Assembly: GCA_009787915.1 (NCBI GenBank)
Contig: WQSK01000004.1
Span: 1 to 40,846 of the forward strand
Reading direction: 5' to 3'
Length of the DNA: 40,846 nt
Source: Bacillota bacterium
Lineage (GTDB): Bacteria > Bacillota > Clostridia > Christensenellales > UBA1242
Shown: piece by piece, positions 7,455 to 40,846 of the stretch
How positions within the stretch are numbered: the first letter of the stretch is position 1
How the letters are laid out: every line of letters starts with the position of its first letter
The notes under the pieces: generated by a model
The model's input: the letters and a program-made list of their open reading frames with translations, nothing else
Databases searched by the model: none
What the model was told of the DNA's origin: nothing
Program-made: the position numbers and the translations under genes

Positions 7455-7991
7455 ATGAAGGGGCTAATCATTTTTTGCATTCTATTATTTGTGGCGTCAA
7501 TAGCCCCACTTTTTTCATGGGGCAAGAGTTACGACGACGTCATAGCCACCGCCGCCCAAATGTTCGGCATAGAGGAACACGAGTTCGAGATTAACCTAAC
7601 CCGAGGTCGCGTAGTAAATGCGGCAGGCGAAAACGTAAGCGGAACCTTCCGCCTCTGTGTCCGCGTTACCGAGTACAATCGGGTCTACGGTGTCTATGTA
7701 ATAAACGTTCGTCAAACTTTTTCCCGTCCAATGACGATACAAACAATCTTCCACGAATTTGCACACGCGGCGCAACACAAGTTCCGACTCTGTTTCGGCG
7801 GACTCCACCGCGAACAACACGCCGAGTTATTGGCTTTCAACAAAATGTGGCACGGCGGTTTTTGGTGGGACGCCCTGCATATGCTCGGGGTTCACGGACT
7901 TCGCTTGAAGCCAAGTGATTACCTTGTCCCCCGCCAAATCATGCGCACGATGCTAACGGGCGAAATCACAACACCTATAAATTTTGTCTAG
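7455..7991 (+). CDS. Secreted/membrane-anchored putative zinc-metallopeptidase-like protein
   Basis: N-terminal hydrophobic signal (MKGLIIFCILLFVASIAPLFSWG) and HEFAHAAQ (HExxH). Confidence 0.7.
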   Translation: MKGLIIFCILLFVASIAPLFSWGKSYDDVIATAAQMFGIEEHEFEINLTRGRVVNAAGENVSGTFRLCVRVTEYNRVYGVYVINVRQTFSRPMTIQTIFHEFAHAAQHKFRLCFGGLHREQHAELLAFNKMWHGGFWWDALHMLGVHGLRLKPSDYLVPRQIMRTMLTGEITTPINFV

Positions 7992-8188
7992 GGGAATCCG
8001 CGTGCGAAAGGGTGAGGGCAGTCGCATATGTACTTTTACAGTTTGAGAATCTTTCTTGAAAAATCGCATTTTCACTCTTGATCCATATTTTTGTTTTCAA
8101 GGCGAAAATAGTGATTTTACCAAGAAAGGCTCAAACCATATAAAAGTACATATGCGACTGCCCTCACCCTTTCGCACGCGGATTCCCC
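7991..8188. repeat. Palindromic repeat element, copy 1
   Basis: GGGGAATCCGCGTGCGAAAGGGTGAGGGCAGTCGCATATGTACTTTTA is a 48-nt perfect inverted repeat at both ends. Inner imperfect pairing continues (TTTGAG..CTTTCTTG..AAAATC). Left end overlaps the TAG stop at 7989-7991. Confidence 0.92.
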
Positions 8189-30299: not shown

Positions 30300-30959
30300 C
30301 TATTTAAAAACATCGTGTTTCATAATATATTCTGCGATTGATTTGAACAATGGTTCATCTTCAAACACGCGTTCAATATCATTCCCAATCCAAAAGTCCG
30401 AAAACCGTTTATATCCGCGGTCTTTCCACTTTTCAATTCTGATTCTTTGAATATCGCTTGGTGTTAGTTTATCGAACTTCATTGCGCCCGACTCGTCATA
30501 ATATTTGCATTGCAGGTCACACTCGAGTTTATCAACAAGATACGCAAATCGCGCCTCTTTTGTTTTTTGTTCGTCGTATTCCTTGTATATTTTTTTAATT
30601 TCGCTACCATTTACGAGGCCACCCAAAATCTTTTTCACCGCCTCTAGTTCAATTCGTTGTTTCTCTTGTTTTGTTACGACACTCCCCGTTGCTGGGATAT
30701 CGCCAATTATGCACTCGCCCAACTCATGTATCGCAATCATAAGTGCAACCTTACTTATATCAAACCCAAGGTCAAACTCCGCGTTAATCGCCAAAGCCAA
30801 CATCTGGGTTCCATAAATATGTTCCGCCACCGATTCGATTCTGTCGCTTTGAATACCACAATCTATCCACCCAGTTCGCGGGAGGGTTTTCAAGCGGTGT
30901 GTTATTGCATAAAAATCACAAACGTTTTTAATTTGATTAGCCACAACAAAAGTATACAT
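30300..30959 (-). CDS. HD-domain (YfbR/5'-deoxynucleotidase-like) protein, paralogue A
   Basis: RIESVAEHIYGTQMLALAIN...ALMIAIHELGECIIGDIP. Confidence 0.85.
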   Translation of the reverse strand: MYTFVVANQIKNVCDFYAITHRLKTLPRTGWIDCGIQSDRIESVAEHIYGTQMLALAINAEFDLGFDISKVALMIAIHELGECIIGDIPATGSVVTKQEKQRIELEAVKKILGGLVNGSEIKKIYKEYDEQKTKEARFAYLVDKLECDLQCKYYDESGAMKFDKLTPSDIQRIRIEKWKDRGYKRFSDFWIGNDIERVFEDEPLFKSIAEYIMKHDVFK

Positions 30960-30997
30960 GATAGACTATCATATGCCATACAGAAAAATTAAAAATA

Positions 30998-31639
30998 TTA
31001 GTTAAAGACTTTATTTTTCAAAAGATACTCTGCAATAGCATTAAAGATTTTGTCATCTCCAAAAATATTTCGCCTGTCATGTTCAATAAAACCCTCGACC
31101 AAAGTCCTGCATCCATACTTTTTATGTTTCAAGAGCATCTCCTTTGCCGACTTGTTCGTAACACGTTTTTCATCCGCATAGCCCATTTCTTCGTTATACT
31201 TGAATTCGAAATCACACTCGATTTTTTCCACGAGGTACGCAAACTTTGCCTCATCGGTTTTGCGCTCCTCGAATTGGGCAAAGAGTTCCAACAACTCCCC
31301 TGCATTACTTATGCCCGCAAAAATCTTTTGGACGGCCTCCAATTCAAGTCGGGCTTTTTCTTCTTTTGAAATCGGGCAACCAGTGTCACCGAGGTCGCCA
31401 ATCACGCACTCGCCCAATTCATGAATCGCAATCATAAGTGCAACCTTTTTAAGGTCCAATTTCAAATCAAACTCGCTGTGAATTGCAAGAGCCAACATTT
31501 GGGAACCATAAACGTGTTCCGCGACACTCTCAAACCGTTCGCGCTCTATCGCCCAAGTCGTCTGCCCCGCACGAATCAGGTTTTTCAACCTGTGCGTAAT
31601 CGCGTAAAATTCACAAACATTTTTGATTCTTTTGTCCAT
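30998..31639 (-). CDS. HD-domain (YfbR/5'-deoxynucleotidase-like) protein, paralogue B
   Basis: RFESVAEHVYGSQMLALAIH...ALMIAIHELGECVIGDLG; clearly homologous to paralogue A along its length. Confidence 0.85.
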   Translation of the reverse strand: MDKRIKNVCEFYAITHRLKNLIRAGQTTWAIERERFESVAEHVYGSQMLALAIHSEFDLKLDLKKVALMIAIHELGECVIGDLGDTGCPISKEEKARLELEAVQKIFAGISNAGELLELFAQFEERKTDEAKFAYLVEKIECDFEFKYNEEMGYADEKRVTNKSAKEMLLKHKKYGCRTLVEGFIEHDRRNIFGDDKIFNAIAEYLLKNKVFN

Positions 31640-32488: not shown

Positions 32489-33543
32489 CTCCCACCTGCC
32501 ATTTTATTGATTTCTTTCATAAGTTCATCCACCATTTTATTCTCTGACACGGTCTTTAAAACCTTACCGTTTTTGAACAAAACACCTTGACCCCTCCCGC
32601 ACGCAATTCCGATGTCGGATTGGCTTGCCTCACCTGGTCCATTTACCGCACAGCCCATAACTGCTACCTTTATATGTTTGTTGATACCAGCACATTGTTT
32701 CTCGACCTCGTTCGCAATTGGGATAAGGTCAACCTCCGTCCTCGCACACGTTGGACAAGATATAACCTCTACACCAAACTTTCTTAAATCCAGTGCACTT
32801 AAGATTTGTTTGCAATAATAGATTTCTTCCACTGGGTCACCCGTGAGCGAAACCCGAATAGTATCCCCAATCCCGTGATGCAAAAGTGTCCCCAGCCTCA
32901 CCGCGGATTTAATCGACCCCGACCTAATTGTTCCAGATTCTGTGATACCGATGTGTATGGGATAGTCAAACTTTTTTGCGAGCAACAAATTGGTTTCAAT
33001 CGTCATCGGCACATTTGAACACTTTACGGAAATACAAATATCGTAAAAGCCCAAATCCTCCAAAATTTTAACACTACGCTCGGTACTCTCGGTCAAACCC
33101 TCGGCTGTTACTCCGCCGTGTTTTTTCAAAATATCTTTTTCAACCGAACCCGAGTTCAACCCAACCCGTATTGGTATTTTATATTCTTTCGCCACGTCAA
33201 CAACATGTTTGATTTTATCAAGTCCGCCCAAAGTCCCTGGATTAATCCGAATCTTGTCCGCCCCATGTCTAATAGATTCAACCGCAAGTTTATAATCAAA
33301 ATGAATATCCGCCTCGATAGGTATGTTGATTTGTTTTTTAATCTCGGAAATAGCCTTTGCCGAATCCAAACACGGCACGGCGACACGTACAAGTTCACAA
33401 CCCACACTCTCCAACGCCTTGATTTGCGCAACCGTGGCTCTTATATCTTTTGTCGGTGTGTTTGTCATTGATTGAATAACAATTGGGCTCTCACCACCCA
33501 TTTTTATTTTCCCGACATTTATTACACGCGTGACTTTTGGCAT
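32485..33543 (-). CDS. ispG: 4-hydroxy-3-methylbut-2-en-1-yl diphosphate synthase
   Basis: SPIVIQSMTNTPTKDI, VISCPTCARTEVDL, VAVMGCAVNGPGEA; probable start MPKVTRV at 33543; 4-nt overlap with ispH. Confidence 0.96.
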   Translation of the reverse strand: MPKVTRVINVGKIKMGGESPIVIQSMTNTPTKDIRATVAQIKALESVGCELVRVAVPCLDSAKAISEIKKQINIPIEADIHFDYKLAVESIRHGADKIRINPGTLGGLDKIKHVVDVAKEYKIPIRVGLNSGSVEKDILKKHGGVTAEGLTESTERSVKILEDLGFYDICISVKCSNVPMTIETNLLLAKKFDYPIHIGITESGTIRSGSIKSAVRLGTLLHHGIGDTIRVSLTGDPVEEIYYCKQILSALDLRKFGVEVISCPTCARTEVDLIPIANEVEKQCAGINKHIKVAVMGCAVNGPGEASQSDIGIACGRGQGVLFKNGKVLKTVSENKMVDELMKEINKMAGGR

Positions 33544-33604
33544 TCCATCTAGGATAACAAATGTGCTCTTGATATTGCAAATTAAATGTGCTAGTTTAAT
33601 TTCG

Positions 33605-34201
33605 ATGAAGAAAGAAATTATGGAAACTTGTAGATGGGCGGAGCGCATGGCAATGCCCAACATTTTACATGAAGAAGTCGCCGACTTGTTTCTTGAACAT
33701 TTTCCCGAAATGCTTATTAACGAAGCACGGAACTATGCTCTGTTTTTGTTAAACGAACGTGATGCCCGAAACGTTGTTGGGTACACAGACCAAAAGCGCG
33801 TCGATGCCTTTAAACAGGAGATGCGTTATATAGAGCAAAAATATTTTGTCACTGCAGACGATATCGTTAAAAAATATCAACTAATAGAAAAGTACAGAAC
33901 TGCGCTACATGAATACAAAAAACTGCAAGATTATAAAATCAAACGTGAGAGTCAAAGAATCGACCTAAAACATCTTTCGGAAAAAGATTTGTGGGAATAT
34001 CTTGAGTTTGCGACGAACGACTTTTTAATATCTGAAAAATTTGGAATGGACAAAACTGTTTCTGCCACACCAGAGTTTTTGGACTATGCAAAACGAAATG
34101 TAAGAAGTGACTTGAATTCACACCTGCGCAGAGGCGGTATAGTGCATGACTATGATGAACTCAAAGAACAATTGTCAAACGCAGAAGAATATTTTTTGTA
34201 A
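33605..34201 (+). CDS. Hypothetical helical protein
   Basis: MKKEIMETCRWAERMAMPNILHEEVADLFLEHFPEML...; probable start 33605. Confidence 0.65.
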   Translation: MKKEIMETCRWAERMAMPNILHEEVADLFLEHFPEMLINEARNYALFLLNERDARNVVGYTDQKRVDAFKQEMRYIEQKYFVTADDIVKKYQLIEKYRTALHEYKKLQDYKIKRESQRIDLKHLSEKDLWEYLEFATNDFLISEKFGMDKTVSATPEFLDYAKRNVRSDLNSHLRRGGIVHDYDELKEQLSNAEEYFL

Positions 34202-34204
34202 ATA

Positions 34205-34351
34205 TCAATCATCGTGGTTGGGTTCTGCTGAACTTTCGGCACAAATTTCGAGCATATTTTGGAGGAGGGTAAGAACCTCGCTTCTGCGAGAACCTTGTCC
34301 TCTCCTGCGCTTCGCTTGGAGGAGCATACGACGTAATAAACGAACTGTCAA
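34205..34351 (-). CDS. Small basic protein (48 aa), below the ORF-track threshold
   Basis: TTG start: MTVRLLRRMLLQAKRRRGQGSRRSEVLTLLQNMLEICAESSAEPNHDD*; alternative ATG at 34327; last gene of the minus-strand island array. Confidence 0.5.
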   Translation of the reverse strand: MTVRLLRRMLLQAKRRRGQGSRRSEVLTLLQNMLEICAESSAEPNHDD

Positions 34352-34387
34352 GGTTGTTTATCTGCCGTGGCGTTGTTGGGAGGTTCA

Positions 34388-34981
34388 TTATCTAAATAGG
34401 TTTACTCCGAATATGAAAATTATATTACCAGCGTCACTTGTAAATTTTCCGACTTTAATTATCAAAGCGTTCCTCGACTTGGCCGATACATCATTTTCAA
34501 ACTTGAACCCAGTGATGTAGTCATTAAATTCCTTAATATGTGACTCTAACGCACATAAATCATCTTTACAAAAGCGCTCCGCATCCATTTTTTTGAGTGT
34601 ATCTACTGTATTGCTTAACTTTCTAAACGCACTAACAACTTGCATGCAACATGTGAAATTTCTTATTTTAGCAGCCGATGTTAAATCATAAGCCTCGACA
34701 ATAGAATCTATCTTCTCAAACATGGTTATAATCTTTTTAAGATACTCATATATAGTTTCTTTTTGCTTTTTCTCATCGGAGATTTTATTAGAAAACCAAA
34801 AAGACAGAAACATCGTTGCCACGGCAATTAGAATAATTGGTATACCTTCCGACAAAGAAATATGATAAAAAGACTCTTTGTTTATGTCAAGTCTCGAAGC
34901 AAGTACTAGCCAAACAATTAGAGAAATAATGATAAATATACCTATTATTAAAAATATCCTCTGTATTATTCTTGTTGACAT
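34388..34981 (-). CDS. Two-TM membrane protein with cytosolic helical domain, putative third gene of the GHKL/STAS module
   Basis: MSTRIIQRIFLIIGIFIIISLIVWLVLASR...GIPIILIAVATMFLSFWFSNKISDEKKQKETIYEYLKKIITMFEK...; start 2 nt after the STAS-like gene stop. Confidence 0.75.
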   Translation of the reverse strand: MSTRIIQRIFLIIGIFIIISLIVWLVLASRLDINKESFYHISLSEGIPIILIAVATMFLSFWFSNKISDEKKQKETIYEYLKKIITMFEKIDSIVEAYDLTSAAKIRNFTCCMQVVSAFRKLSNTVDTLKKMDAERFCKDDLCALESHIKEFNDYITGFKFENDVSAKSRNALIIKVGKFTSDAGNIIFIFGVNLFR

Positions 34982-34982
34982 T

Positions 34983-35321
34983 TCAAACCCTCTTATTCGC
35001 ATCCAATATATATTTTCTGATATCATCTATCAAAGATGGCTCCTCTTTTGAAACAAAATCAAACATACCCACAACATTATCGTCTCTATAAATCCTTGCG
35101 AGTCCACCAAAAGATTCCTCGAGAAAAGAAACTGGATAGCCATACCCACCGTCAAGATTGACCATTATCTTTACACCATTAGCCTTTGCCTTATCGTAGT
35201 TAGGGATTAGGTGTTTATCCCTAAATTCCTCGCCAGAAAATTTACCATCCTTTTTATAGCGTGGACCCGGTATCTCAGTAAAGTCATGTGCGACATTTAT
35301 CTTAATCTTTTCCATTAACAT
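34983..35321 (-). CDS. STAS-like domain protein (DUF4325)
   Basis: DGKFSGEEFRDKHLIPNYDKAKANGVKIMVNLDGGYGYPVSFLEESFGGLAR; overlaps the upstream GHKL gene. Confidence 0.78.
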   Translation of the reverse strand: MLMEKIKINVAHDFTEIPGPRYKKDGKFSGEEFRDKHLIPNYDKAKANGVKIMVNLDGGYGYPVSFLEESFGGLARIYRDDNVVGMFDFVSKEEPSLIDDIRKYILDANKRV

Positions 35322-36382
35322 GCTTCTCCTTTCAATTTCACAGTGTCTACTTCCCAGTAGTATAGCGTACCATATAATTTATTTTTTTGCTCATCTTTTT
35401 TTATAACTAGATTATTATTTTCTTTATACAGTTCACACTTCGCCCTATTAGATAATATCACCATACTTTTAATATGTCCATATTCAATTTTTTGTTTAAT
35501 ATTTGGCAAGCCTTTGTTTCGATGCTTAAGTTTTGTAGTTGAACGAAATTCTCCGCCCTCCAAAGCAGACTCAATCAAATCTACTTGCCTAGCACCAAAA
35601 ACCTTTTCTCCAAATCTCTTTTTAATGGTCGAAGGTATACTGCCACCTGTGTCAAGAAATACAAACTCAAATTTCGAGCTGCGCTTTTCGACAAACAAAT
35701 ACCAATCTTTTAAAAGATCTGTGTCATCAGTGTAAGCATGTGCTTTCGTGTTTTCCATAAGCTCTACAATAGTCTTCTGCAAAAATTTCGTTTCATTTCT
35801 AGTACACCCAATTTTGTCTATAACCCAATCGCATATGGCTTTTGCAAGATCTGATTTAACCTCTTTTCCATTTTTAATCGCAACCTTATCGGCGTTTTTG
35901 ATAATATTATTTAAGCTATTAACGTAGCTAAGAAATCCTGACTCCATAAATACACGTCTTGCTCCATCTACTAGCGGGAGGTCTCCAGACCACCTAATAC
36001 CTTCATTTTGATTCCGCTTGTCTCTAAGCATCGCGAGTAGGTACATTACTGCATCTGCTGTTGCATTTTTAATATTTCTAGCATCGATTTTTATCTTCAT
36101 GCGCAGACCTCTATTCGCAATCATGAATTCACGAATACAGTGAAAAGTGCTCTTCACGTCTTCTGGATTACTAAGCAAGCTAAAATCCTCTGGAAGACTA
36201 AAACTCTTTTCTTTAATCTTTTGTAAGTGGCATCTATCAGTTTTTTTATATTTTTTTATTTTGATAGCTTCTTTCTTCCTACTAGTGCATGGTTTATGGT
36301 AACGGCGTTCAGCTTTACGCACTCCTTTCTTCCTACTTTTGCGTCTCAAATATTCTTTGTATCTAGGATTTTTCTTTCTCAA
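35315..36382 (-). CDS. GHKL-type ATP-binding protein with STAS-like N-terminal region
   Basis: N box VELMENTKAHA, G1-like FVFLDTGGSIPSTI, G2-like HRNKGLPNIKQKI; STAS-like IKIDARNIKNATADAVMYLLAML. Confidence 0.75.
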   Translation of the reverse strand: MRKKNPRYKEYLRRKSRKKGVRKAERRYHKPCTSRKKEAIKIKKYKKTDRCHLQKIKEKSFSLPEDFSLLSNPEDVKSTFHCIREFMIANRGLRMKIKIDARNIKNATADAVMYLLAMLRDKRNQNEGIRWSGDLPLVDGARRVFMESGFLSYVNSLNNIIKNADKVAIKNGKEVKSDLAKAICDWVIDKIGCTRNETKFLQKTIVELMENTKAHAYTDDTDLLKDWYLFVEKRSSKFEFVFLDTGGSIPSTIKKRFGEKVFGARQVDLIESALEGGEFRSTTKLKHRNKGLPNIKQKIEYGHIKSMVILSNRAKCELYKENNNLVIKKDEQKNKLYGTLYYWEVDTVKLKGEAC

Positions 36383-36463
36383 AATGCCTCCACCCAGATA
36401 CTACCACGAATTCTACTCAAAGACAATATAAAATTATCTTCAAGTTTGGAACTATTTAGGTAC

Positions 36464-37420
36464 TTACCACTTAACATCTATATAAAACATTTTTTCGGGC
36501 TTGCTTTGTAAATTAATATCGAATTTCAAACTTGTTTCAACTTTGGAACTTGCATTGTGAATTCGGAAAGAAATTGACCAACCATTATTCATTGTTAATA
36601 TCAACGTGGTTTGTGATTTTTCTTTGAAATCAAACTCAATAATTCGCGTAGGTAATTCGATATTTGGGATAGTTATAGTTGGCTTGTTTTTACCGCTTGT
36701 GTTTAATGTGCCGAACAAGTTAAATGGAATAATCGTAGCAATGTTATTATTGCGGTGGATAAGTTTGTAATAGTCTTTCCCGTTGCTTCCAAGCAGATAG
36801 CGAATTAGATTTTCGGTTACGTCTTCGTTTTGAGAATTAAGTTTAATAAACTCATTTTTGAAAGCAGTTAATAACGGAACATATACGGCATTCTCCTTGC
36901 TTGGCAACTGCGACCACAATTTCCCGCAAGACTTTTCTTTTGACAACATGTCAAACAAAGGTTTTATTTCAGTGAAGTAATCTTTGGAACAATTTGCACC
37001 AAGCCAAAGTTTGCCAAAATCAATACTCATCGAAAGCCGTGAGTGTTTTAACGCCTCGTGGTTATGTTTAACCGAAACTCCGATTTCCCACTTGATTGAA
37101 CGTCGGATAATCAGGACATCACGAATATCCCCACCTTTCGCCAAATTATCGGGTTGTAGCGATATGGTCAATTTATCATCTCCGTCGTCGGTTACTTTGG
37201 GTTCCATTTCAATAATTTTGCTCATGCCCGCTTTTGCGGATCTCAACATTTCGGCTTGCTCGTCTTGCGTGATTTCGTTATATCTTTGTTCTGCTATTTC
37301 AAGACTTGAATTCGCTATGATTTCAACTGGACGAATAGGCGTGACAAGTTCCTTTATCGCCAACACGCAAGCGTATTCATATGCCTTGCCTTTAATTGTT
37401 GAGTTTATTGTTGTTCTCAT
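36464..37420 (-). CDS. Type II restriction endonuclease, HaeIII-like
   Basis: [42 protein letters not shown]; 4-nt overlap with the HaeIII-like methyltransferase gene. Confidence 0.78.
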
Positions 37421-38394
37421 TTCAAATCTTCCTTTATCTTTTTTGCAATCGCATACGCTAGGTTTACTGGCACGGCATTACCCACCATTTTGTAACCGTC
37501 GGCAATGTCATTATAAATAAAAATAAAACTATCGGGGAATGTTTGTATTCTTGCACACTCACGCACGGACAACCGCCTATAATCATCTTCTTTACCGGGA
37601 ACGAATATTCTTTTGTTTTGTTCGACAAAAAGCATTTTAGGGGCTTGTGGGTGGATAGGGGCGTGTCTGCCACCTGCTTGGATAGTGAAAGAAGGTTCGT
37701 CCCAAGAACGTACACGATTACGTGACATAAAGATTGTAGAGAATCCGCCATTCATATATTCGTGATTCGGAATTGGTAATTCAAGCCCCCATGACTTATT
37801 ATGCTGTTTAGCAGGTTGGGCTTGTCGCAAATCCCATATAGCGTCTTTCAAATTTGGTTTATATTCTTGCACAGGTGGAAATTCAAACTTTTTATTTAAA
37901 TCTTTTCTATATCCCACGATGATGACACGCTTGCGATTTTGAGGGACATCAAAATCATTAGCGTCAACAAGTTGCCAAGAAACATTATATCCTGCACTTT
38001 CAAACTCGGAAATAAACTTATCGAAATTAACTTTGTGTTTATCTAAAAGCATACCGCCCACATTTTCACACAAGAAAAACTTTGGCTTTTTATCTTTTAA
38101 TATCCTAATATAGTCTAAAAACAATTTACCCCTATCGTCATCAATGCCACGCCCCGCACCGGCTTCACTCCAACTTTGACATGGCGGTCCGCCAATGATT
38201 CCGTCACAATCGGGAACTTCTTTGGGAGATACATCTGTTATGCTTCGTTTATCAAGTTTAGAATTAGGAAAATTTTTTTCATAAGTAGCCCAAATTGTTT
38301 TATCGTATTCATTCGCCCAAACAGTGTGAAACCCCGCTTTTTCAAAGCCAAGGTCAAGACCCCCAGCACCTGCAAAAAATGAAACGATTTTCAT
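37417..38394 (-). CDS. DNA (cytosine-5-)-methyltransferase, M.HaeIII-like
   Basis: [26 protein letters not shown] (motif IV), ENVGGM (motif VI), [33 protein letters not shown] (TRD region close to M.HaeIII), [16 protein letters not shown]. Confidence 0.95.
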
Positions 38395-38419
38395 CGTTGT
38401 GATTGTACCATTAACCTTC

Positions 38420-39358
38420 TTAATTGTACACCCTAAAAACAATCATTCTGTCGTTCTCTTTGTGTTTGACGAGTTTTGCGTTTATATCAAACGTACTTAA
38501 TAGCAGACTCTCATATTTCGCTTTGTCAGTAAACTTTATCTCGGTGTTTTTGAAATCCAAGTTTCTAGTTCGATAATAGCGTTTCTGATTAAGCCCAATG
38601 CTGTTCTCTTGCTTGGTCACATATCCAATAATGTAGTTGATTGCTTTCAACTGGTTTTCAATACTCTCTTGGTCGATTTTAACAACAGTTGAAAAACCTT
38701 TGTCCCAGAGTGGCAAATTATAAACTTGTCGACCACTTTGTAATACAGGTTCGCTTGTGTGTGGGTTGATTGCCACGACTAAAATATTTTCTAAGTCACA
38801 ATCCCCAAGTAAAGCATGAAAATGAATGTTGCCTTTGGCGTGGCGTTCAGGAACTGCAAGGATCTTAACAGTTGGAAATCTCTTTTGTAACTTTTGGCGG
38901 AACATTTGCCAGTAGTATTTTGTTGCTTTGTCATCATGGTCATGTTCGCTTTTCGCAATCGTAAAAGTACAAAAATAAACCCAGTCATTACACAAAGCAT
39001 ATCCATAAAAATTGTCTTTTGCTCTGCGACAACTCTCGTATTGACTGCGGTCAAATCCGTTGTCGATTTCCAAAATCTCGCCACGACTTGCGTATTCGTC
39101 AATTTGCTCTTGGTCTGTTATCTCTTTTCGTTTACTCGCTGAGATGATTTTGCCAGTTTCAGTATCTACCCAGTTATAATCTTTCTTACCAGTCAGGATA
39201 TCAAAAGGTTCGTGATAGTAAATGATTTCAGTAAAGAACTTAAACCGATTTATCCGAGTATTTACTTGCTCTCTCTTTTGTTTAGATAATAAATGTGCGT
39301 TAGGTTTCAAAACCCTCTCAACACGTTTTGACATGAACTTGTCCATGTGATTATCCAC
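38420..39358 (-). CDS. HUH-type rolling-circle replication initiator (Rep)
   Basis: Motif [10 protein letters not shown], motif [12 protein letters not shown] (HUH), motif III candidate [10 protein letters not shown] (catalytic Tyr). Confidence 0.8.
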
Positions 39359-39372
39359 CTCTTTTAGAATTT

Positions 39373-39684
39373 TTAAGTGTTGCCAATATCAAGTATGACA
39401 ACCGCTTCGCTAGCAACCCCTTGCGGCGCACGTGGCGGAGACGGGCAAGCCTCGTCTCTCGCCACCACTGTGCGGTCGCAAGTGTGTTTGCACACTCTCG
39501 GCTCATTCGCTTTGCTCATTTGATAGCAATCGACTAGAAGGCTTGCCACTCGTTCCGCAAGACTTACTGCTACCTTTGTTGTGACTTCTGCATAAATCGG
39601 CACGCATGGCAAAAGCGACCTCGTAACTTTGTCACGAAGCCGATAACTGCCGATTTGTACTCGAATAGTTTTTTGCACAGCCAC
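39373..39684 (-). CDS. Possible small protein upstream of rep
   Basis: MAVQKTIRVQIGSYRLRDKVTRSLLPCVPIYAEVTTKVAVSLAERVASLL...; AAGAGGTG RBS-like sequence. The C-terminal half is encoded by the hairpin region and may be fortuitous. Confidence 0.3.
   Translation of the reverse strand: MAVQKTIRVQIGSYRLRDKVTRSLLPCVPIYAEVTTKVAVSLAERVASLLVDCYQMSKANEPRVCKHTCDRTVVARDEACPSPPRAPQGVASEAVVILDIGNT
39421..39496. repeat. Hairpin cluster upstream of rep, candidate rolling-circle origin
   Basis: TTGCG-CGCA-TGGCG-GAGACG...CGTCTC-CGCCA-TGTGCG-CGCAA long stem (39421-39481) followed by AGTGTG-TTTG-CACACT (39481-39496). Confidence 0.5.
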
Positions 39685-39929
39685 CTCTTAAAGATTTGCT
39701 GTCATTTGTTTTTCTTTTGCCTTAACAGTAGGTCACGACAAAGGTCAAAAGTGAGGGGGTAAATCAAAAAAACTTTCCCTACATGGAGAACGCAAGAAGT
39801 ACCCATTTTGACTACTAGAATTTTAAAAAATCGTTTTTAATTTGTCCCATGACTTTACCTACACAAAACCAATACTTTACACAGCAAAAACCTAACTTTT
39901 CCCATCACTTGTGGTACAGTTGGTGTGCT

Positions 39930-40056
39930 CCCTTTTGGGCATAGCCGATGTTGGTAGCACAACACGCCCAAGACCGTCAAGGTAGTTTTCCCTTGGAACT
40001 TCCACCTTGACTGCCTTGGGCGGTTGTGCGGTTTGTCGGCTAAGCCCAAAAGGCAG
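39930..40056 (+). promoter_or_regulatory. Long imperfect hairpin in the leader of the serine recombinase gene
   Basis: Complementary blocks CCTTTTGGGC, TAGCCGA, GCACAAC, CGCCCAAG, GTCAAGGT in the left arm and the reverse complement of the right arm; about 15-nt loop. Confidence 0.7.
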
Positions 40057-40100
40057 CCCTACGATCGGTTGCTTGTTAAGGGCAAAAAGGAGTGTGTAAA

Positions 40101-40846
40101 ATGAACAAAGCAGTAATCTACGCAAGGTACAGTTCCAACAACCAAACGGAACAGTCGATTGAAGGACAGGTTAAAGTCTGTGGGGAATTTGCCCAACGAC
40201 AAAATCTCGCCATTGTAGGCGAGTATGTTGATCGTGCTATGACGGGGACTAATGACAAACGTCCTGAATTTCAACGCATGATTTCGGACAGCAAACAAGA
40301 AATATTTGACGTGATTTTGGTGTATAAACTTGACCGATTTTCTAGGGACAAATATGAAAGTGTGGTTTATAAACGACAACTTAAAGAAGCAGGCGTTAAG
40401 GTCGTGTCGGCAACGGAAGCCATAGCGGACTCGCCAGAGGGCATTTTGTTAGAAAGTGTCATAGAGGGTTACAACCAGTTCTATTCAGTGGAACTCTCTC
40501 AGAAAATTAAACGTGGCAATCAAATCAATCTTGACAAGGGGAACTGGACTGGCGGAATTGTGACGTATGGGTACAAGGTTGTTGACAAGAAAATTCAAAT
40601 TGATAAACCCAAAGCCGAAATTATGAAAAAGATTTTTTCAGACTATGCAAGCGGAAAACCTAAGAAAGAGATTTGCAAAGAACTTAACGAAAAAGGTATA
40701 CGCAATAGAAGTGGCGAGCCTTGGAGTGTCACAAACATTTACCACAACTTGAAAAACAAAAACTACATCGGAATACTTGAACGTCATGGTGTTGAATACA
40801 CCAACATATACCCCAGGCTTATCGACGATAAACTTTTTGAAGAAGT
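40101..40846 (+). CDS. Large serine recombinase (site-specific integrase), 3' truncated by window edge
   Basis: MNKAVIYARYSSNNQTEQSIEGQVKVC (catalytic Ser context), VDRAMTGTNDKRPEFQRM, LVYKLDRFSRD, KRGNQINLDKGNWTGGIVTYGYKV; AAAAAGGAG RBS. Absent from the ORF track because no stop lies in the window. Confidence 0.93.
   Translation, partial: MNKAVIYARYSSNNQTEQSIEGQVKVCGEFAQRQNLAIVGEYVDRAMTGTNDKRPEFQRMISDSKQEIFDVILVYKLDRFSRDKYESVVYKRQLKEAGVKVVSATEAIADSPEGILLESVIEGYNQFYSVELSQKIKRGNQINLDKGNWTGGIVTYGYKVVDKKIQIDKPKAEIMKKIFSDYASGKPKKEICKELNEKGIRNRSGEPWSVTNIYHNLKNKNYIGILERHGVEYTNIYPRLIDDKLFEE

Follow-up and report, generated by a model that had tools for sequence, protein, structure and literature searches.

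A three-gene module encoding a STAS-GHKL kinase-like protein (gene A), a DUF4325 STAS-like switch protein (gene B) and a two-TM membrane protein (gene C) was found in the 40,846-nucleotide stretch of Bacillota DNA analysed here (the window). That this module is real, conserved and mobile is near certain. Judged by its sequence, it is a VapKSC-like system in which the PIN toxin is replaced by a membrane protein. VapKSC consists of the STAS-GHKL kinase VapK, the STAS antitoxin VapS and the PIN toxin VapC (EMBO J 2026, PMC13373217). The features of the locus are the following.

34259..34274, minus strand: putative att-type direct repeat TCTTACCCTCCTCCAA, 16 bp; second copy at C1:63366
34388..34981, minus strand: gene C, two-TM membrane protein, 197 aa (TM prediction and model)
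34983..35321, minus strand: gene B, DUF4325 (PF14213) STAS-like switch protein, 112 aa (Pfam E=8e-7)
35315..36382, minus strand: gene A, STAS-GHKL kinase-like protein, 355 aa (intact ORF, TTG start)
36464..37420, minus strand: HaeIII-type restriction endonuclease, a cargo neighbour outside the module (PF09556, E=1.8e-111)
37417..38442, minus strand: C5 cytosine methyltransferase, a cargo neighbour (PF00145, E=2e-101)
38420..39358, minus strand: replication-associated protein Rep (REP_ORF2-G2P) of the mobile element (PF23343, E=7e-13)
40101..40846, plus strand: large serine recombinase, first part (508 aa in full, the rest on contig C1; PF00239, PF07508, PF13408)

Genes A, B and C are intact minus-strand ORFs forming an operon. 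The TTG start of gene A lies 4 nt beyond GGAGG. A and B overlap by 7 nt, and B and C are joined as TGA-A-ATG with a 1-nt spacer. The first-pass annotation had described three coupled minus-strand genes with a 7-nt overlap, as the ORFs confirm, and a TGA-AA-ATG junction, which is in fact one base shorter. The module proper occupies positions 34388-36382, while 34205-34387 is the edge of the element. The HaeIII endonuclease, the C5 methylase and Rep all lie upstream of A-B-C, and the Pfam matches bear out the earlier identification of the R-M pair and Rep gene directly downstream of which the module had been placed.

The suggestion of a mobile island was also borne out. An element of about 7.36 kb comprises the serine recombinase, Rep, the HaeIII R-M genes and A-B-C, and is bounded by 16-bp direct repeats. 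One copy of TCTTACCCTCCTCCAA lies just past the recombinase gene, the other just past gene C. The exact 16-mer occurs at only these two sites of the genome (contig overlap counted once), and its chance expectation, allowing up to two mismatches, is 0.01 in the 13-kb locus. Since the repeats flank this segment, its cargo is the R-M system and A-B-C. The 508-aa recombinase, completed on the extension in contig C1, has Resolvase, Recombinase and zinc-ribbon domains. The final 7725 bp of the window (33122-40846) are identical to the reversed end of C1. This is a dovetail overlap of contig ends, and thus there is one locus; the second identical copy of A-B-C in the assembly is this overlap, and a duplication was rejected. 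The assembly contigs are redundant, so copy numbers in it mislead. When an empty site was sought in the same-genus and same-family genomes tried, the flanking genes were not found together.

Several other structures were observed in the window. An inverted repeat of 22 nt (91%), whose loop measures 87 nt, lies at 39927-40057, immediately before the serine recombinase start, and is possibly a regulatory or attachment structure. A plus-strand ORF of 223 aa (33530-34201) overlaps the ispG start and adjoins the edge of the element; it matches no Pfam family and is almost entirely missing from 11 relatives. At 30300-31639, two paralogous HD-domain-like genes in tandem encode proteins of 219 and 213 aa, with about 80% DNA identity in a 130-bp core. 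A self-complementary palindrome of about 200 bp, with arms 83% identical, is situated at 7991-8188.

The loci used to analyse conservation were gathered by similarity to B, and the survey thus describes this clade of B, not all DUF4325 proteins. The scan of genome contigs yielded 342 relatives, of which 80 were kept; viral contigs gave a further 15. Linkage was called by six-frame profile searches on B loci with enough flanking DNA (n=90). Gene A is directly upstream of B in 74 of these, and a membrane-protein gene is directly downstream in all 74 A-bearing loci, 66 of them recognized by profile. The other eight third-gene proteins are divergent, each predicted to have one or two TM segments, and are encoded at the same position. 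Relatives of A-B-C occur in about 18 bacterial phyla, including Bacillota, Bacteroidota and Patescibacteria, and also on phages and plasmids. Two plasmids, one of Leptospira and one of Vibrio, and Marinobacter phage AS1 carry distant homologues in the order A-B-small membrane protein; in AS1, the module adjoins the repressor region. Streptococcus phage Javan172 (L107:1998-3276) has a STAS-GHKL kinase paired with a DUF4325 protein, and the integrase follows without any obvious third gene in between. Among closer genomes, gene A is absent from 58 relatives, same genus included, and when 300 genomes of the phylum were searched with A, no further convincing full-length copy emerged, most matches being partial and generic to GHKL proteins. 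The neighbourhood survey proposed with the first reading thus shows that the membrane gene recurs in every kinase-bearing locus (74/74). Together with the structural matches described below, this linkage upholds the proposed SpoIIAB/SpoIIAA-like kinase-STAS pair with an associated membrane protein.

The 135 genes flanking the module loci include those for AbiH (3), YhcG/DUF1016 (3), type I R (2), GmrSD (2), Fic (2), DpnII and RhuM, several integrases and recombinases, and matches to PADLOC candidate families. No sigma-factor family is among the top families of these neighbours. AbiH was matched 8 times across 200 genomes of the phylum, and its frequency near the module (3/135) is far above this background, which has a different taxon mix and is not a set of matched random loci. 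As to the defence-island enrichment named as a check in the first reading, genes for defence and mobility often adjoin the module, and the comparison with a background covers AbiH only. The distribution is patchy and horizontal with defence or mobility neighbours, as in a mobile defence cassette. PADLOC has no model matching A, B or C, either in the window or in the relatives scanned, and the PADLOC check suggested previously gave no relevant match for the three proteins.

Gene A alone has no Pfam match. Its AlphaFold2 model (mean pLDDT 89.8) consists of a basic N-terminal helix (residues 6-51), a STAS-like domain and a SpoIIAB-like GHKL domain. The best clean Foldseek matches are SpoIIAB (TMt 0.65-0.72) and, for the STAS part, RsbV; the RsbV identity of the short chains of RsbV/RsbW complexes and of the STAS-part match was read from chain length and the domain order of the model. 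Both methods agree with the GHKL-fold ATPase and STAS-like N-terminal part recognized from the sequence at the outset. The GHKL residues E207, N211, D244, G246 and G291 are invariant in 59/59 proteins, and the aromatics F150 and W227 are conserved. The N-terminus has a net charge of +23 over 63 aa (median of homologues +15), and its basic helix is a candidate nucleic-acid contact. At two near-invariant nucleotide-binding glycines (58/59 and 56/59) the protein from the window has the substitutions G248S and G289N, by which this particular kinase copy might be weakened.

The assignment of B to DUF4325 holds, as the PF14213 match is above the curated cut-off. The top PDB match of the B profile is Escherichia VapS 9Z7O, though it is weak (E=0.07). 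The N-terminal invariants of B are R21, G26, S29, F33 and L38. Ser65, situated in the motif GYxxSFLEExFGGL, is invariant in all 81 kinase-paired copies. Where no kinase was detected (18 copies), the residue is Gly or Cys in seven and still Ser in 11, some of the latter being visible remnants or located at contig edges. Thus Ser65 is replaced by Gly/Cys only in kinase-less orphans. On the tree the losses reduce to about two independent events, one of them the Bacilli clade of solitary genes; Fisher's p=2e-6 for Ser65 against kinase presence is overstated, since only about two losses are needed.

In VapS, a Ser/Thr equivalent to S48 is absolutely conserved in the STAS domain, and S48E abolishes inhibition of the PIN toxin (PMC13373217). 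Ser65 aligns one column after this residue. The column matching Ser48, position 64, lacks Ser/Thr in 13 of the 81 kinase-paired proteins and has Val in the window copy; it was therefore rejected as the phosphosite, and Ser65 is preferred. Ser65 is the predicted phosphosite of B, with the caveat of a one-residue register difference from VapS Ser48. Signalling from kinase A to Ser65 of B is considered fairly probable.

Solitary DUF4325 genes of Bacilli with Gly at the Ser65 position and no kinase or membrane gene were observed at L067:7995-8354, L085:8001-8348 and L062:3321-3665 and in L080, L092 and L099. Their contexts are housekeeping: the gene in L067 lies between rimM-like and trmD-like genes, that in L085 follows a murE-like gene. 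In an Acidobacteria contig (L079:1570-2298), a C-terminal fragment of the kinase is apparently fused in frame to B, which suggests a fusion or a decayed copy.

The model of C (pLDDT 86.6) has TM1 at about residues 2-31, a TM2 that runs into a long helix (43-96), and helices 104-158 and 167-196. The protein is predicted to be N-in/C-in, with a short loop between the TM segments and no periplasmic sensor domain. Two TM segments are predicted in 53 of 58 C proteins, and the positive-inside bias places the helical domain in the cytosol. The model and these predictions agree with the original description of two TM segments and a helical domain in the cytosol. C has no conserved residues that look catalytic. 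It matches none of the Pfam, NCBIfam or PADLOC families above the cut-off, and a Foldseek comparison with PDB gave no significant match, only generic helical bundles. Matches of the C profile to coiled-coil and helical-bundle chains were taken as composition artefacts.

A possible mechanism is as follows. In the resting state, B would bind the cytosolic helical domain of C and keep C inactive. Kinase A would then be activated; its trigger may be DNA, single-stranded or damaged, that arises in a phage attack, and the STAS-GHKL groove and basic N-terminal helix of A are candidates for contact with nucleic acid. In the published systems, ssDNA activates the kinase via a conserved aromatic residue, VapK F54 or CapK W68 (PMC13373217). 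Activated A would phosphorylate Ser65 of B, a step supported by the conservation pattern, and B would release C. Freed C may then act in the inner membrane, resulting in growth stop or cell death. We consider it somewhat more probable than its converse that A-B-C is a stress-triggered toxin-antitoxin or abortive-infection cassette working like VapKSC, and the chance that C is the released membrane effector is rated about even or slightly better. VapKSC protects about 100-fold against phage Bas42, and this protection needs VapC D28, VapS S48 and VapK F54 (PMC13373217). By analogy and from the context, an antiphage function of the module is plausible. The wider proposal falls a little short of an even chance. 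It would make the module an undescribed, phylum-spanning antiphage class, in which a STAS-GHKL kinase senses infection, phosphorylates a DUF4325 STAS protein and unleashes a two-TM effector, so that phospho-release (partner switching) directly turns on abortive infection at the membrane.

The role of C could also be the reverse: a membrane anchor or sensor for envelope disturbance during phage adsorption or DNA entry, signalling via the STAS protein to the kinase, whose output would be phosphorylation of other host proteins. The long continuous helix from TM2 into the cytosol resembles receptor signalling helices, helices of chemoreceptors and of histidine-kinase complexes are among the weak, non-significant Foldseek matches, and the lack of conserved catalytic-looking residues fits as well. 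However, C has no periplasmic sensor domain and a short inter-TM loop, and in the published VapKSC parallel the third gene is the toxin; we regard a sensor role as unlikely. The copies on plasmids, phage genomes and the small integrative element, as well as that beside the repressor region of phage AS1, would agree with a plasmid or prophage maintenance or exclusion module (addiction, superinfection exclusion) benefiting the mobile element rather than general antiphage defence. Many copies, however, reside on contigs of bacterial genomes and have restriction and Abi genes next to them, and the distinction from defence is in part a matter of wording, since VapKSC is a toxin-antitoxin system that also protects. 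This explanation is given a small chance.

Slightly smaller still is the chance of a non-defensive, horizontally spread regulatory switch, for instance one controlling envelope stress. STAS/GHKL pairs commonly regulate stress responses, and the Bacilli have their solitary DUF4325 genes in housekeeping contexts. But these copies have neither Ser65 nor a kinase, and the patchy mobile distribution of the module, absent from the 58 relatives, and its defence and recombinase neighbours also argue against such a switch. The first-pass annotation had considered A-B-C as a control layer for the HaeIII R-M system, directly downstream of which it lies within this element; close to 20% of capKS loci are likewise downstream of an R-M operon (PMC13373217). 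However, the module has no DNA-binding domain, in particular no HTH as in CapK/CapS, and it recurs with other neighbours: HaeIII is not a recurrent one, whereas the membrane gene is the constant partner. Control of the R-M system can hardly be its function. The cassette with C as the membrane effector thus remains the preferred reading.

VapKSC provides the precedent for a kinase-STAS pair that gates a toxin via phosphorylation, and the module suggests a wider use of this sensor-switch, in about 18 phyla, phages and plasmids, with a membrane protein as the output. DUF4325 gains a likely role, with a precise phosphosite prediction, Ser65, that has natural variants. The module is also a defence candidate invisible to PADLOC. 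In the open-access literature on DUF4325, on STAS-like and GHKL proteins and on partner-switching and antiphage systems, no description of the membrane variant was found.

The module resembles the pairs SpoIIAB/SpoIIAA and RsbW/RsbV in the GHKL serine-kinase fold with a STAS partner and in the E-N-D-G motifs, and these are its best Foldseek matches. However, A itself includes a fused STAS-like domain, there is no sigma factor, and the membrane partner is constant. Two-TM effectors of abortive systems are small proteins with a cytosolic helical domain, encoded at the end of the operon, and C would be similar by class analogy.

In both VapKSC and CapK/CapS, a STAS-GHKL kinase phosphorylates a STAS protein; CapK is an HTH-STAS-GHKL kinase, and CapS a STAS-wHTH repressor of the downstream operon (PMC13373217). 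The module shares with the latter pair a STAS-GHKL kinase beside a STAS substrate in defence loci. However, the N-terminus of A is one long basic helix without HTH, and B consists of the STAS-like domain only, without wHTH; therefore this is not a transcriptional switch.

The closest parallel is with VapKSC. A VapKSC locus (L106) was found in which VapS is a DUF4325 protein (E=3e-13) and the third gene encodes a PIN protein. In hhalign comparisons A matches the VapK of this locus with E=5e-9 over 237 columns, and B matches its VapS with E=4e-4. The third gene of our module encodes a two-TM helical protein with no PIN match, and the module is therefore not filed as VapKSC. Further, kinase A has an extra basic N-terminal helix of about 60 residues, B has an additional conserved N-terminal motif PGxRY..G..SGExFR, and its invariant serine is one column from VapS Ser48. 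The two systems share the gene order, a homologous STAS-GHKL kinase without HTH, a DUF4325 STAS protein as the second gene, a conserved serine near the same helix start, and the association with mobile elements and defence.
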